In this document: positions 4,566 through 9,696 of the stretch, piece by piece
How positions within the stretch are numbered: position 1 is the first letter of the stretch
How the letters are laid out: the number at the start of each line of letters is the position of its first letter
Assembly: GCA_030427935.1 (NCBI GenBank)
Contig: JAUICI010000011.1
Location: forward strand, 1-46,125
Origin: Bacteroidia bacterium
GTDB lineage: Bacteria; Bacteroidota; Bacteroidia; Flavobacteriales_D; Crocinitomicaceae
Length of the DNA stretch: 46,125 nucleotides
Direction of reading: 5' to 3'
Translations under genes and position numbers: made by a program
Notes under the pieces: model-generated
What the model saw: only the letters and a program-made list of their open reading frames with translations
Database searches by the model: none
Told to the model about the DNA's origin: nothing

Positions 4566-4612
4566 GCCTCAATATGTTTAGATTTATAAGGATTTTAACA
4601 AACTGAAATTAC

Positions 4613-5620
4613 TTGCTGAAAGAACAATTCGACATATTGTCATACTTGGATGAGCGTAAACTCAAAAATATTTTGAAGCTCAGAACATCTTATTTGATGT
4701 CGAAATGGACCAAGAAACTTCAGCATCGAGGAAGACCTTTTTCGATCTCAATTGAACCTACCACTGCTTGTAATTTGGGCTGTCCGGAATGTCCAAGTGG
4801 TTTAAAAAAATTCACTCGTCCAACAGGGAAGTTGCAGTTGGAGATGAACCAGAAGATCATTGATGAATTGCATAAAGAACTACTTTATATCACTTATTAT
4901 TTTCAGGGAGAGCCTTTCATTAATCGGAACTTTTTAGATATGGTGCGCTATGCCAATCAGCATAAAATTTACACCGCTACTTCTACAAACGCCCATTTTT
5001 TAAGCAAAGAAAACTGTGAAGACATCATTGATTCGGGATTAAATAAAATGATTATTTCCTTAGATGGATTAGATCAAAAAACATATGAAACTTATCGAAT
5101 TGGAGGGAAGTTCGATACGGTATACGAAGGGATGAAAAATCTGTGGGAAACGATCCGAAAGTTTAAGAAAAGTCCTCATGTTATTGTTCAGTTTTTGGTA
5201 TTCAAAAGTAATGAACATCAGCTACCGGATCTTAAAAAATGGATGCAGCAGTTTCCCGGATTTGAGTTGCGTATCAAGTCGGCTCAATTTTATGAGTATG
5301 AAGACGGGAATGATTTGATGCCAGAAAATTTGAACTATTCCAGGTATAAAAAGATTGGAGACAAATTCCGAATCGACAATGAATTATCCAATTCTTGTTG
5401 GCGATTGTGGAGCTCTTGCGTATTTACCTGGGATGGAAAATTGGTGCCCTGTTGTTTTGATAAGGACGCCGAGCATATTGCTGGAGATCTTGCCAATGAA
5501 AGCTTTGAATCGATTTGGAATGGAGAGGTTCTCAATCAGTTCAGAAGTACTGTTTTTTCGGACCGAAGTCAGATTGAAATTTGCAAAAATTGTTCGGAAG
5601 GAAGTAAGGTTTGGATGTGA
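4613..5620 (+). CDS. radical SAM protein with C-terminal SPASM domain
   Basis: A 335-residue iron-sulfur enzyme. The radical SAM cluster motif is C53-x3-C57-x2-C60 (TTACNLGCPEC), preceded by the characteristic PFSISIEPTT strand. A second cysteine set near the C-terminus (SCWRLWSSC, VPCCFD, ICKNCSEG) matches the SPASM auxiliary-cluster layout, with the typical GDLANESFESIWN segment between. Bacteroidota have many such single-gene SPASM proteins; the substrate is unknown here and no peptide precursor gene was seen nearby. It starts with TTG at 4613: an in-frame TGA lies 9 nt upstream, the first ATG is codon 29, and the residues between resemble the start of relatives. Its TGA stop is shared with the left hairpin repeat of the GIY-YIG element. 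Confidence 0.88.
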   Translation: MLKEQFDILSYLDERKLKNILKLRTSYLMSKWTKKLQHRGRPFSISIEPTTACNLGCPECPSGLKKFTRPTGKLQLEMNQKIIDELHKELLYITYYFQGEPFINRNFLDMVRYANQHKIYTATSTNAHFLSKENCEDIIDSGLNKMIISLDGLDQKTYETYRIGGKFDTVYEGMKNLWETIRKFKKSPHVIVQFLVFKSNEHQLPDLKKWMQQFPGFELRIKSAQFYEYEDGNDLMPENLNYSRYKKIGDKFRIDNELSNSCWRLWSSCVFTWDGKLVPCCFDKDAEHIAGDLANESFESIWNGEVLNQFRSTVFSDRSQIEICKNCSEGSKVWM

Positions 5621-5646
5621 TCTCGGCTCGCGCTCGATCACCTAGA
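5620..5646 (+). repeat. left terminal repeat of the GIY-YIG element
   Basis: It begins with the 19-mer ATCTCGGCTCGCGCTCGAT (5620-5638), perfectly inverted at 6037-6055, and continues with CACCTAGA, which matches the right copy at 6 of 8 positions. The slightly larger unit 5618-5640 starts TGATC and ends GATCA, so this copy can itself close a short hairpin around a 13-nt GC-rich centre. The first bases are the TGA stop codon of the radical SAM gene. Confidence 0.85.
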
Positions 5647-5689
5647 TCCTGACATTATGTTATCTTCGTTTTTCACTTAAATCAAATCT

Positions 5690-6022
5690 ATGCCTGGATA
5701 CATGTATATTCTTGAATGTGCCGATGGATCTTTCTATACAGGTAGTACAAAAAACTTAGAAAAGAGAATGCAAGAACATCGTTCTGGTAAAGGAGCAATT
5801 CACACAAAGTCGAGATTGCCTGTAAAACTTTTATATTATGAAAAATATTGGAGTGTTAAAGATGCTTTCGAAAGAGAAAAGCAAATTCAAAATTGGAGCA
5901 GAAAAAAGAAATTAGCACTAATAAACCGAAATATAAAAGATCTCGAGCTCTATTCTAATTGTCAAAACTCATCCACATCAAAACGGATTTATGAGTGGAA
6001 ACACCCAAAGAACGATAAGTGA
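5690..6022 (+). CDS. small GIY-YIG nuclease family protein
   Basis: A 110-residue single-domain GIY-YIG protein, often annotated as UvrC-like or UPF0213/YhbQ-like. The catalytic elements are intact: Y4/Y6 in GYMYILEC, Y16-T17-G18 (the YIG position), R26 and H30 in the KRMQEHRSG helix, and E63 in AFEREKQIQNW, the probable metal ligand. A lysine-rich helix (SRKKKLALI) and a polar tail of about 30 residues follow. Family members cleave DNA using one metal ion. A TATCTTCG sequence at 5661-5668, one mismatch from the TAnnTTTG -7 element, lies inside the terminal repeats, so the gene may carry its own promoter. It is flanked by inverted repeats, suggesting it acts on them or was spread with them. 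The in vivo substrate is unknown. Confidence 0.9.
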   Translation: MPGYMYILECADGSFYTGSTKNLEKRMQEHRSGKGAIHTKSRLPVKLLYYEKYWSVKDAFEREKQIQNWSRKKKLALINRNIKDLELYSNCQNSSTSKRIYEWKHPKNDK

Positions 6023-6028
6023 CTGGTT

Positions 6029-6055
6029 TTTAGGTAATCGAGCGCGAGCCGAGAT
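6029..6055 (-). repeat. right terminal repeat of the GIY-YIG element
   Basis: This is the inverted copy of 5620-5646, matching at 25 of 27 positions, including 19 without mismatch (6037-6055, ATCGAGCGCGAGCCGAGAT). The unit 6035-6057 starts TAATC and ends GATTA. The left copy has TGATC and GATCA, so the second base pair of the putative stem has changed from G-C to A-T on both arms together, as expected if the hairpin is what is conserved. Confidence 0.85.
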
Positions 6056-6141
6056 TAGCTAAAAAATGTTAAAACTGAACCAATTAACGTGTCAGGTGTA
6101 GTATTTTCCGTTAAGAATATATTCTCACTAAAAAATAGTAC

Positions 6142-7899
6142 ATGAAACGACTTGTTTTTATCGGAGGTATCCTCCTCTTTTCCTTAACCTCTTTTGCGAA
6201 TGAAATCGAATCGAAGTCGAAAATAGACAAAGTAAAAGTCTTTTTGACAGGAGCTCAAATCGAGCGGTCAACGAGTGCGCAACTCAAAGCTGGAAGAAAT
6301 AAAGTGATCATCAAAGGTGTATCGGCTAAACTGGATGAAAAAAGTATTCAGGTTCGATTCACGGAAGCTGTTAAACTGATGTCCGTGAGTACAGAAATTG
6401 ATTATACTTTATTTGAAGGTAATTCTGGCAGAATTGGTCAGCTCAATGATTCTTTGAAAATGGTTGAGGCTCGAATTCAAGAGTTGAATGATATCAAATC
6501 AGCCATTAATTCAGAAAAAGACATTCTGAACAAAAACCAAAAACTTAATGGGTCGAATTCTAATGTGACGGTTGAGCAATTGGAAAAAGCGGCGAATTTC
6601 TACCGAAAGCGAATGGAGAAAATCAATAAAGAATTGACGGATATCCGCATGGAGACCAAAACCTTGAGTGAAAGTAAGTGGATTTTAAAGCACAAATTGG
6701 ATGAATTGAATTTCAAAGAATCTACAAGAAGTAATCAAATCATCATGATTTTAGATTCAAAACAGCCGGTTAAAGTCAATTTGGATATCGAATATTTTGT
6801 TTCTGGATGTGGTTGGGAGCCGAATTATGACTTACATGCCTCTGATTTAAGTGGGAAAATTAAGATGCAGTACAAAGCCAAGGTTTTTAATGATACTGGA
6901 AACGATTGGGATGGAGTTGAAATGATTCTTTCAACTGGAAATCCAAATTTAAGTGCCACATTTCCTGAATTATCGCCATGGTATTTGAAATACATGCAAT
7001 ATGTTCAAGACCAAACAAAGACGATTTCCAATCAGCAATTGCGATCGAACGTGAACTATTATATTCCAGATAATACGATGAATTGGGATATGGTTGTGGA
7101 AGATAATGAGAAAAAAGTGAGCAAATTACAAACACAAATTAATAGCTTAAACAGTTATTATTCCGATGTTCCGAATCAGTTTGAACAAAGACAATTGTAC
7201 TTTTCATCAGCCAGAAAACCGAAAAGTTCTGTTCAATATAGAACCATCGAAGTTTCACATTTAAGTAGTGAATTTGAGATCGAAGAGAAGTATTCTATTC
7301 CTTCCGATAAAAAACCATATTTGGTAGAAATCAAGGAGCATGATCTTAGCGGGACATTCGATTATGTAGCGATTCCGAAAATGGAGAAAGACGCCTTTTT
7401 ATTGGCTCAAATCCCGGGTTGGGAGCAATTGGATATTGTTCCTGGTCCGACGCGAGTTTATTTTGATGGAACCTATGTTGGAGAAAGTTGGATTGACACA
7501 AGAAATGTAGAAGATACACTTGGATTGTCTTTCGGAAGAGATTCTAAAATTTTTACGGATAGAAAATTACTTTCTGAATTTTCGAATAAGAAAGTCGTTG
7601 GAAACAATAGAAAGGACTCCTACACCTACGAGATCACGGTGAAAAACACTCGTAATATTGCTGTTGAAATGGAATTGCATGACCAAGTTCCAGTTTCTCA
7701 AGACAGTGATATTTCTGTAACGGTAATGGAGACTTCTGATGCCGTTTTGGAAGATGTAACAGGGATTTTAACTTGGAAAGTAAAATTAGCTCCAAATGAA
7801 TCCAAGAAGTTTAAAATCTCATTCACGATTAAATATCCAAAGAACAAAAAAGTACAAGTAAGATCATTCAGAAAAATGAAGGCACCAAGATTTTTATAA
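6142..7899 (+). CDS. MuiA-family / DUF4139 protein, copy 1
   Basis: A 585-residue exported protein of the mucoidy-inhibitor MuiA family. It has a signal peptide (about residues 1-19, ending in SFA), an N-terminal DUF4140-like domain with the KVKVFLTGAQIERS strand, a long charged helical region of about residues 95-200 that probably forms a coiled coil, and a DUF4139 domain from about 215 to the end. MuiA overexpression affects mucoidy in enteric bacteria, but the biochemical role is unknown; cell-envelope interaction is likely. It is a tandem paralogue of the next gene, to which it is closely similar over nearly the whole length, with 51 bp between them, so they are probably co-transcribed. 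The most divergent part is a linker at about residues 285-360. Confidence 0.88.
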   Translation: MKRLVFIGGILLFSLTSFANEIESKSKIDKVKVFLTGAQIERSTSAQLKAGRNKVIIKGVSAKLDEKSIQVRFTEAVKLMSVSTEIDYTLFEGNSGRIGQLNDSLKMVEARIQELNDIKSAINSEKDILNKNQKLNGSNSNVTVEQLEKAANFYRKRMEKINKELTDIRMETKTLSESKWILKHKLDELNFKESTRSNQIIMILDSKQPVKVNLDIEYFVSGCGWEPNYDLHASDLSGKIKMQYKAKVFNDTGNDWDGVEMILSTGNPNLSATFPELSPWYLKYMQYVQDQTKTISNQQLRSNVNYYIPDNTMNWDMVVEDNEKKVSKLQTQINSLNSYYSDVPNQFEQRQLYFSSARKPKSSVQYRTIEVSHLSSEFEIEEKYSIPSDKKPYLVEIKEHDLSGTFDYVAIPKMEKDAFLLAQIPGWEQLDIVPGPTRVYFDGTYVGESWIDTRNVEDTLGLSFGRDSKIFTDRKLLSEFSNKKVVGNNRKDSYTYEITVKNTRNIAVEMELHDQVPVSQDSDISVTVMETSDAVLEDVTGILTWKVKLAPNESKKFKISFTIKYPKNKKVQVRSFRKMKAPRFL

Positions 7900-7950
7900 T
7901 TGGTTTGTAGTCATTTGATGATTTGAATTGTTTTACTAAAAAACTCTAAT

Positions 7951-9696
7951 ATGAAAACTTTAATTGCAATAGGTATCCTACTAACTTCCTTTCCACTTTT
8001 AGCAAATGAGATTGAAGGCCAATCCGCTATTGATCGTGTAAAAATATTCTTAACCGGAGCTCAAGTTGAAAGATCTTCAAAAGTGAGCTTGAAGGCCGGA
8101 CGAAATAAAGTCATCTTGTCTGATATTTCAGCGAAGTTGGATGAGAAAAGTATTCAAGTTCGATTTAAAGAAGATATCAAATTGATGTCGGTAAGCACGG
8201 AACTGGACTATGCTATTTTCGAAGGAAAAGAAGGGAAAATTGGTCAGTTAAATGATTCACTCCAGTTGATTACTGCAAGAATTCAGCAATTGAACGATAT
8301 TAAATCTGCTGTAAATTCAGAAAAAGAAGTCTTAAACAAAAACAAAGACTTGGGAGGAGCCAATTCTAATTTGACGGTTGAAGAAATTGAGAAAGCAGCT
8401 AATTTCTACCGAAAGCGAATGGAAAAGATCTACAAGGAATTGACAGAGATTAAGAATGAGATCAATGAGTTGAATAAAAGAAAGTGGATGATCCAGGCAA
8501 AGTTGGATGTGCTCAATTTCAAAGAGTCTACAAAAAGTAATCAGATCATTATCATTTTGGATTCCAAAACAGCCACAGCGGTTGATTTGAATATTGAATA
8601 CTTCGTTTCAGGTTGTGGTTGGGAGCCCAATTACAATTTGAGAGCTCAAGATTTGAGTGGGAAAATATTGATGGAATATAAAGCCAAAGTATTCAACGAT
8701 ACTGGTAATGATTGGAATAATGTAGAAATGGTTTTATCTACAGGAAACCCGAATTTAAGCGCCACTTTCCCTGAATTATCACCTTGGTACTTAAATTACC
8801 AAACTTATGTGCAAACGAAAGGAAAGGTAGCTCAAAACAAAGATCGCGGTAAAAAGAACTATTACATTCCAGAAAACAACATGAATTGGGATATGGTAGT
8901 TCAGAATAATGAAGATAAAGTCCGTGAAATTCAACAGGAAGTACAGATGAATGCCGGTTATTTTGATAATCTTCCGCAAGGACAAGATGCGCGATTCAAA
9001 TACTTTCAGAATAAGCCAAATAAAACCAATGTGGTGTATCGAACAATCGAAGTGTCGCACTTAAGTACGGAATTCGATATTGAGGAAAAGTATACCATTC
9101 CTTCCGATAGAAACCCGTATTTGGTCGATATCAAAGAGCATGAATTAAATGGAACCTTTGAATATGTAGCGGTTCCGAAAATGGAAAGAGACGCCTTTTT
9201 ATTGGCTCAAATTCCGGGTTGGGAGCAATTGGATTTAGTTCCAGGGCCAACCAGAGTTTATTTTGATGGAACTTATGTAGGCGAAAGCTGGATCGATACG
9301 AGAAATGTGGAAGACACGCTTGGACTTTCTTTCGGTAGAGATTCTAAAATCATTGTGAGTAGAGATTTACTGAGTGAATTCTCCAATAAAAAAGTAGTTG
9401 GAAATAATAGAAAAGACTCCTACACCTATGAATTGACAGTCAAAAACACTAGAAATAATGCTGTGGAGATGGACCTTCACGATCAGATTCCGATTTCTAA
9501 GGATAGCGATATCTCAGTTGTTGTTGATGAGATTTCAGGAGCGCAAAAAGAAGAAGAAACTGGAATCCTGACTTGGAAAGTAAAGTTAGGTCCGAACGAG
9601 AGTAAGAAATACAAGATATCTTTTACAATAAAGTACCCTAAAAACAGAAAGGTTCAGGTACGATCCTTTAGAACAATTTCATGTCCTAGTTTTTAG
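7951..9696 (+). CDS. MuiA-family / DUF4139 protein, copy 2
   Basis: A 581-residue tandem duplicate of the preceding gene with the same order: signal peptide (ending LLA), DUF4140-like domain, charged coiled-coil region and DUF4139 domain. The segments CGWEPNY, AKVFNDTGNDW and LAQIPGWEQLD and the region after VPGPTRVYFDGTYVGESW are essentially unchanged between copies. The linker at about residues 285-355 has diverged except for a retained island (YYIPENNMNWDMVV here, YYIPDNTMNWDMVV in copy 1). Both copies look intact, so this appears to be a retained duplication rather than a decaying one. A strong terminator follows directly (9718-9745), closing the unit. Confidence 0.88.
   Translation: MKTLIAIGILLTSFPLLANEIEGQSAIDRVKIFLTGAQVERSSKVSLKAGRNKVILSDISAKLDEKSIQVRFKEDIKLMSVSTELDYAIFEGKEGKIGQLNDSLQLITARIQQLNDIKSAVNSEKEVLNKNKDLGGANSNLTVEEIEKAANFYRKRMEKIYKELTEIKNEINELNKRKWMIQAKLDVLNFKESTKSNQIIIILDSKTATAVDLNIEYFVSGCGWEPNYNLRAQDLSGKILMEYKAKVFNDTGNDWNNVEMVLSTGNPNLSATFPELSPWYLNYQTYVQTKGKVAQNKDRGKKNYYIPENNMNWDMVVQNNEDKVREIQQEVQMNAGYFDNLPQGQDARFKYFQNKPNKTNVVYRTIEVSHLSTEFDIEEKYTIPSDRNPYLVDIKEHELNGTFEYVAVPKMERDAFLLAQIPGWEQLDLVPGPTRVYFDGTYVGESWIDTRNVEDTLGLSFGRDSKIIVSRDLLSEFSNKKVVGNNRKDSYTYELTVKNTRNNAVEMDLHDQIPISKDSDISVVVDEISGAQKEEETGILTWKVKLGPNESKKYKISFTIKYPKNRKVQVRSFRTISCPSF

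Follow-up and report, generated by a model that had tools for sequence, protein, structure and literature searches.

At the centre of this study is a small gene for a GIY-YIG nuclease that lies, framed by two hairpin-like inverted repeats, in a stretch of 46,125 nucleotides from a Bacteroidia bacterium of the Crocinitomicaceae (contig JAUICI010000011.1 of assembly GCA_030427935.1, positions 1 to 46,125 of the forward strand). The whole of this stretch is referred to as the window. The repeats resemble repetitive extragenic palindromic (REP) sequences, and the nuclease is considered here as the candidate enzyme of such a repeat family. The features of the locus are as follows.

5618 to 5644, minus strand: left REP-like hairpin; the minus strand reads TAGGT-GATC-GAGCGCGAGCCGAG-ATCA, with the TAGGT end towards the gene
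5690 to 6022, plus strand: GIY-YIG nuclease gene, 110 amino acids, tail motif N-C-Q-N-S-S (CxN class), PF01541 at E 1.8e-18
6031 to 6057, plus strand: right REP-like hairpin, TAGGT-AATC-GAGCGCGAGCCGAG-ATTA, with the TAGGT end towards the gene
5619 to 6069, no strand: inserted unit plus edges, where the related genome G001 has only 50 bp (from the comparison with G001)
4613 to 5620, plus strand: radical SAM/SPASM gene, the upstream flank, outside the unit
6142 to 7899, plus strand: DUF4139/DUF4140 gene, the downstream flank, outside the unit

The original prediction had described a single intact GIY-YIG gene between GC-rich inverted repeats, each closed by a stem of its own, and the locus is indeed built in this way. 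The reading frame at 5690-6022 is intact and free-standing, with complete genes on both sides, and the protein has no Pfam match other than the GIY-YIG domain and a weaker, overlapping one to T5orf172. When 6031-6057 is reverse-complemented, 25 of its 27 positions agree with 5618-5644, and a repeat search at the locus returned arms of 25 nt with 96% identity. Within the arms the stems are TGATC/GATCA on the left and TAATC/GATTA on the right, the sole differing stem pair being compensated. The GC content is 61% in the left and 52% in the right repeat, against 37% in 1000 flanking bases. Note that the left repeat opens on the TGA stop codon of the upstream radical SAM gene. When folded as DNA, the strand with GAG..CGA yielded -4.6 and -5.0 kcal/mol for the two repeats; as the corresponding z scores are only -1.05 and -1.46, folding energy alone is weak evidence, and the covariation within the stem is the stronger evidence for a hairpin. 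Two other identities for the locus were rejected: a comparison of 4600-7900 with Rfam gave nothing at E 1 or below that would indicate a group I intron or another known RNA, and no PADLOC model for anti-phage defence genes matches.

The window repeat belongs to a genome-wide REP-like family, a short multicopy hairpin that is mostly extragenic and occurs in inverted pairs. A search of the genome for further copies, proposed together with the original prediction, found the repeat to be multicopy. In the assembly (3.9 Mb, 289 contigs) the core GAGCGNNAGNCGAG has 34 matches with at most one mismatch, against 13 for the reversed control, and the type-A pattern GAGCGN{1,2}AGYCGAR has 25 against 1, with up to 52 in relatives. 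Since the same repeat recurs in the genome, the inverted repeat of the window is not a product of chance. Among the 13 exact matches to GAGCGNNAGNCGAG, two (C84 and C189) fall within tRNA-like sequence and do not belong to the family. From 13 chosen loci of the window genome 15 copies were listed, one of which (C225) is probably a chance match; the TAGGT foot is present in 11 of the 15, and 13 different 3-nt middle stems, many with matching partners, surround GAGCGCGAGCCGAG or a variant of it. GTAG at the stem foot occurs in none of these 15, and the window-type copies examined in this genome do not display a CGTC/TGTC tag, an AT-starting stem or a CCA-like tail. Ten of 14 repeat sites lie in no open frame of at least 100 amino acids, a small sample in which the frames are not proven genes.

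Inverted pairs without a gene are found at C63 and C133 of the window genome, and they occur in 10 of 10 regions of the related genome G010, regions that were chosen for nearby matches. In the window both TAGGT ends point towards the gene. In the C133 and G010 pairs their counterparts point towards each other, which puts the gene in the position of a spacer between paired repeats; the C63 pair is oriented the other way round. Further afield, three genomes of the Nostoc group contain 30, 105 and 105 matches to the type-A pattern. Three Gallionella-type genomes, whose loci have SKN, SKS or SKC tails, contain 1 to 3, which is below the control counts.

The same kind of hairpin accompanies the nuclease subfamily as a whole. 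Relatives of three proteins of the window genome were collected by protein similarity alone, and the best 80 of 297 candidates, termed the discovery loci, were scored for the form stem-GAG-loop-CGA-stem with a stem of at least 5. They include Bacteroidota, Nostoc and other cyanobacteria, Gallionella-type bacteria, Kuenenia, Chloroflexi, Cloacimonadota and a Calditrichaeota contig; many are contigs of metagenome-assembled genomes (MAGs). The original prediction had also called for a look at other GIY-YIG loci, and between -300 and +450 at least one GAG-CGA hairpin is present in 73 of the 80, on both sides in 41. If only the 250 bp next to either end of the open frame are considered, 60 and 32 of the 80 remain; we ascribe the difference to the wider stretch and to frames whose 3' end runs into a repeat. 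Over the first 250 bp on each side of the domain the hairpins, found on both strands, reach 3.97 per kb upstream (78) and 5.95 per kb downstream (115). Taken together, the density within 250 bp is 4.95 per kb versus 0.059 per kb beyond 1 kb (31 in 526 kb), an approximately 84-fold difference. Two control cores with stems of at least 5 were absent near the gene and occurred at 0.002 per kb far from it. As evidenced by an analysis in which no stem was required, 154 of 263 core sites have at least six of eight flanking pairs complementary, with 65 different stems, while about 22 of 263 are expected after shuffling of the partners. Scoring of terminal inverted repeats across flanks taken from different loci offered no useful control, since the core motif is common to different organisms.

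Some loci are more elaborate. Arrays of 9 or 10 GAG-CGA copies surround the units L137 and L167. A GIY-YIG domain is also found in frame inside the R subunit of type I restriction enzymes (L115 and L127 by Pfam, L084 and L151 by reading) and inside an S subunit (L182, by Pfam). In the HsdR cases the repeats are seemingly translated as PEPVEG-like linkers; an HsdR insertion with an uninserted homologue was already noted in 2006 in a passage of PMC1564403.

Beyond what the original prediction proposed, the C-terminal tail motif of the nuclease predicts the loop type of the adjoining hairpin. Loops were classed as A (CGNAGY), B (GNNCT) or C (CYTGT, that is CTTGT or CCTGT), and the rule was set on the discovery loci and then tried on loci fetched later. 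With the short frames L089 and L100 dropped, 78 of the 80 discovery loci remain. CxN tails go with loop A in 40 cases, with B and C in one each, and seven have no typed hairpin; AYRD tails go with B in 11 cases and never with A (five without); SKN tails go with C in three (four without); among other tails there are two A, two C and two without. The later sets exclude L161 and L282, which are identical to the discovery loci L133 and L108. The first of them comprises relatives of the window genome, with loci found by a hidden Markov model; it omits L158, from the window genome itself, the broken genes L173 (loop B), L187 (A) and L193 (C), tails of unnamed class (L175 with four C loops, L189 with none) and the distant clades L181-L184 and L186. 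Here seven of eight CxN loci have loop A and the eighth, L162, has an A-type inverted repeat; all six AYRD loci have B and none A, and both SKN/SRN loci have C. The second, a phylum-wide draw of 247 genomes, holds 29 loci of 33 matches outside the window genome, and again CxN tails go mainly with A (8/8), AYRD tails mainly with B (3/3) and the one SKN tail with C; other tails gave one A (in a broken gene), one B, two C and eight without.

Two further tail classes mostly stand without hairpins. AKKxF loci are devoid of a GAG-CGA hairpin in eight of nine cases in the first later set and in four of four in the second, and all seven AKKxW loci of the second set, six of them from near relatives, have none. 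These may represent a housekeeping or domesticated class. Fisher tests that treat loci as independent yielded p 2e-11 for the discovery loci and p 5.8e-8 for the later sets, with counts of 15 and 12, and the catalytic-domain tree has a minimum of 13 changes in loop type.

Residues Y6, Y16, R26 and E63 are invariant across 39 alignment rows, and a conserved arginine and glutamate are named as hallmarks of the GIY-YIG family in PMC1564403. The AlphaFold2 model has a confident domain with a mean predicted local distance difference test (pLDDT) score of 85, a last helix at residues 82-89 and a disordered end at 93-105 with pLDDT below 50. The nearest solved structures are the UPF0213 proteins 1zg2, which the window protein matches in a profile comparison at E 3.2e-21, and 1ywl, followed by Slx1 (6seh, E 0.007). 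Slx1 cleaves branched DNA (PMC6902002), and the closeness of the modelled fold to such an enzyme makes recognition of a hairpin or cruciform plausible. The UPF0213/prokaryotic Slx1-like family (1zg2, 1ywl; YhbQ, YazA) shares domain and size with the window protein. Here, however, tail classes with and without hairpins separate, and in the passages of PMC1564403 and PMC7017083 examined no flanking repeats are described for it.

A sister clade of the subfamily, with W-x-DL tails, adjoins a different set of repeats. The 2013 survey of Di Nocera et al. (PMC3733652) treats CGTC REPs as lacking a dedicated transposase; in its relevant passages no checked transposase gene is regularly linked to them, their spread is left open, and S. 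meliloti, A. lipoferum, N. aromaticivorans and Neisseriae are named as hosts. The string 'giy' does not occur in its main text. A GIY-YIG gene at L186 that encodes a W-x-FLN tail has at its flanks GTCATTTCGACC..GAAATCT repeats that recall CGTC REPs, and relatives were found in 21 of 120 Pseudomonadota genomes (35 matches). We examined 33 such loci, 30 from the Pseudomonadota matches together with L181, L184 and L186. A strict CGTC-type hairpin lies within 300 bp in 23 of the 33, with 59 hairpins in 19.8 kb near the gene versus 28 in 76.2 kb far from it; of the other ten, several have CGTC-like inverted repeats only, and L218 and L226 have none. Ten loci were furthermore chosen from 33 records of a plasmid collection, known CGTC hosts first. 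Strict hairpins are present in seven of these, from Azospirillum lipoferum, Sinorhizobium meliloti, Neisseria gonorrhoeae, Shinella, Rhizobium CIAT894, Planktothrix and Spirosoma, while Novosphingobium aromaticivorans and a Sphingobium have CGTC-like inverted repeats only and Rhizobium tumorigenes has none. Many repeats that flank the W-x-DL clade have the CGTC/TGTC tag, AT-starting stem and CCA-like tail of CGTC REPs, whereas window-type repeats are without the CGTC tag. CGTC-pattern hairpins occur near 6 of the 80 genes of the window subfamily, most of them chance-like, with 52 further out, and GAG-CGA hairpins occur in 2 of the 33 W-x-DL loci (L207 and L208). The latter are mostly hybrids of a TGTCAT tag, as in the CGTC type, with a CGAG..CGAG core, and they link both repeat superfamilies. 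At L269, CGTC copies extend over about 1.5 kb around the unit.

The window genome contains further GIY-YIG genes. Six of its 12 matches (C133, C258, C80, C60, C228 and C267) are no more than about 160 bp away from the end of a contig, a position to be expected where an assembly breaks at repeats; those at C228 and C267 are in longer proteins. The genes L003, L005, L006 and L007 (on C20, C258, C80 and C60) adjoin tRNA genes and partial tRNA copies. ARAGORN called tRNAs for Ala, Met and Asn among them and none in L007. In the partial copies at L006 and L007 a hairpin TCCCGATTATCGGGA takes the place of the anticodon arm, and L006 has two such copies in tandem before an intact tRNA and one after the gene. 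Another GIY-YIG locus, L010, is near a transfer-messenger RNA. These tRNA-associated genes and hairpins possibly form a second GIY-YIG/repeat system.

The unit is present or absent between close relatives, as an empty site sought in line with the original prediction makes evident. In G001, the one same-genus genome among 59 drawn, both flank genes of the window adjoin each other: their aligned parts are 50 bp apart, compared with 451 bp in the window, and this empty site contains no repeat. Elsewhere G001 has a GIY-YIG gene of its own, 77% identical to the window gene at the DNA level; inverted REP pairs of the same CGCGAGC-loop type, damaged in one upstream arm, stand on either side of it. 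A clean reciprocal empty site was not found, because at the site of the G001 unit the window genome holds a different reading frame, of about 210 codons and without GIY-YIG. In the sister clade, the gene of Azospirillum lipoferum 4B stands between sufB and sufC with two CGTC REPs on either side, at a place where A. ramasamyi (96%), A. oryzae and Azospirillum B510 have neither unit nor REP. As the empty sites of G001 and of the three Azospirillum genomes are devoid of a REP, the REPs came with the gene. Sinorhizobium meliloti Ak57 has a unit between gltA and lpxB, and also a 3' piece of the gene between REPs. In the window itself two DUF4139-type genes, the downstream flank at 6142-7899 and a further one at 7951-9696, stand in tandem, the second with 72% DNA identity to the first.

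Gene and repeat were also compared at the level of whole genomes. Among the 59 genomes, the window genome included, the subfamily gene is present in 24 at a threshold of E 1e-24 that was chosen after the list had been seen, with one to three copies per genome. Type-A repeats have a median of 8 in these 24 versus 2 in the 35 without the gene (p 0.0028, and 0.0048 without the window genome).

The best reading of the window is that of an autonomous form of a REP-like mobile unit, in which an Slx1/UPF0213-type GIY-YIG nuclease is probably the dedicated enzyme of the repeats, in a role like that of a RAYT and with an unrelated chemistry. The original prediction had named the nuclease as the enzyme that may recognise or spread the repeats, and this proposal draws support from the multicopy repeat, the hairpins at 73 of 80 loci, the empty site and, as detailed below, the absence of the hairpin from HUH-transposase loci. 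With respect to mechanism, the nuclease would recognise the folded hairpin or a cruciform, its flexible C-terminal tail would read the loop and the GAG/CGA core, in which tandem G.A mismatches are a possibility, and it would cut at or near the folded structure. Repair of the break could then copy the REP, or the whole REP-gene-REP unit, to a new place. Gene-less REP pairs would be non-autonomous passengers, as miniature inverted-repeat transposable elements are to a transposon, and the W-x-DL clade would do likewise for CGTC REPs. To this particular route of cutting and copying we give slightly less than an even chance. In a wider sense, and on somewhat better than even terms, a superfamily of small GIY-YIG nucleases may drive REPs that are not of the RAYT type: GAG-CGA repeats with three tail types, CGTC repeats with the W-x-DL clade, and possibly the tRNA-derived hairpins. 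It would range over Bacteroidota, Cyanobacteriota and Pseudomonadota and probably Planctomycetota and Chloroflexota, the last two both from MAGs, and its C-terminal tail would be a readable code for the hairpin.

A number of observations weigh against these assignments. Seven of the 80 loci have no GAG-CGA hairpin, and some phylum labels may be incorrect, since several of the named loci come from MAG assemblies. The correspondence of tail and loop has exceptions: the CxN loci L085 and L130 have loop B or C, the AYRD loci L164, L166, L168 and L169 have C-like loops as well as B, the AYRD locus L287 has three B, two C and one A, and the AKKxF locus L177 has an A hairpin at -272. Only three independent pairs on well-supported branches of the tree are available, too few for significance on their own, for a p of 0.25 in a test whose looser tail pattern places L143 (SKN) in CxN; an average of 2.6 of the 3 show agreement between tail and loop, and none runs the opposite way. 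The association of repeat and gene across genomes is only moderate. Many type-A copies are found without the gene in G010 (51), G005 (19), G002 (18) and G052 (14), and conversely G006, G015 and G034 have the gene and no type-A repeat, which counts against a strict rule; the tails are of the AYRD type in G015 and G034, with B and C loops, and of the KKF type in G006. G010, a genome in five contigs with many of its repeats in inverted pairs, may have lost the enzyme or have another engine. Finally, Sinorhizobium K101 (95%) has a REP-like pair and no gene at the site of the Ak57 unit, so that in this case the gene may as well have been lost from between REPs, or have inserted into REPs, as have moved together with them.

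The K101 pair, which stands where Ak57 has a gene between REPs, and the repeat-rich G010 without a subfamily gene would both be accommodated if the repeats spread by other means and the nuclease gene were of the homing-endonuclease type, with REPs as its landing site. GIY-YIG domains are classic homing nucleases, as stated in PMC1564403, and homing endonucleases and Penelope-like elements share with the window the use of a GIY-YIG nuclease for mobility. They differ from it in that the window has no intron RNA match, no further domain in the protein and hairpin repeats on both sides. We nevertheless regard homing as unlikely, as the empty sites in G001 and the three Azospirillum genomes contain no REP, so that the REPs arrived with the gene, and a passive target explains less well that the loop type follows the nuclease tail.

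Equally unlikely in our view is a housekeeping role, in which the nuclease would be a repair or replication factor that processes REPs by removing extruded hairpins without spreading them. The low number of one to three copies per genome would suit such a role; domesticated RAYTs, too, are of low copy number. The kinship of the fold to UPF0213 and to the structure-specific nuclease Slx1 (PMC6902002) points the same way. Against this role, the gene is found in only 24 of 59 genomes and at changing sites, and it has its own presumed substrate on both sides, in the manner of a mobile unit.

That RAYT transposases of the HUH type spread the repeats, as in classic REPtrons, while the GIY-YIG genes hitchhike, is very improbable. 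Y1_Tnp genes are certainly at hand, with four in the window genome and some in 39 of the 59 genomes, but the 33 Y1_Tnp loci inspected (101 kb; Y1_Tnp matches, possibly not all RAYTs) do not contain a single GAG-CGA hairpin, and repeat-rich genomes exist without any Y1_Tnp match (G009 with 16 repeats, G056 with 24, G005 with 19). The palindromes around the four HUH transposase-like genes of the window genome (L043-L046) differ from the GIY-YIG repeat. In the same 33 loci the CGTC pattern has 17 matches, 0.17 per kb, which by eye are chance-like. The likeness to REP, bacterial interspersed mosaic element (BIME) and REPIN systems with a RAYT is one of architecture: short, imperfect, mostly extragenic multicopy hairpins, often in inverted pairs, with a low-copy gene flanked by its own hairpins and enzyme clades matched to hairpin types, a correspondence that the relevant sections of PMC6006769 and PMC8266576 report for RAYTs. 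RAYT systems have an HUH tyrosine transposase and a GTAG tag, whereas the window has a PF01541 GIY-YIG enzyme of unrelated fold, no GTAG and, unlike RAYT REPs, a GAG-loop-CGA core, in agreement with the different chemistry foreseen in the original prediction.

Least probable of all is the view that the hairpins are ordinary terminators or mRNA-stabilising structures in tolerated intergenic positions, for although some have long stems (as behind L001) and many lie just downstream of the gene, they are common upstream as well and on both strands, become so much rarer further out, and have loops that follow the protein tail.

In the open-access literature searched, no paper contains both 'GIY-YIG' and 'repetitive extragenic palindromic', and among the matches listed none connects REP repeats with GIY-YIG nucleases; as preprints and most subscription papers lay outside this search, the connection may have been described elsewhere before. 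The intergenic space of many bacteria is crowded with palindromic repeats, and to our knowledge, in the literature examined, only those tied to RAYTs have a named enzyme. The pairing described here names a candidate enzyme for CGTC REPs and for hairpins of the TGAGCGNAGYCGAA type. If it holds true, there would be a second, chemically unrelated REP engine, the missing enzyme of the CGTC REPs would be supplied, and the variation in place and number of many genes of unknown role annotated as 'GIY-YIG nuclease family' would find an explanation.

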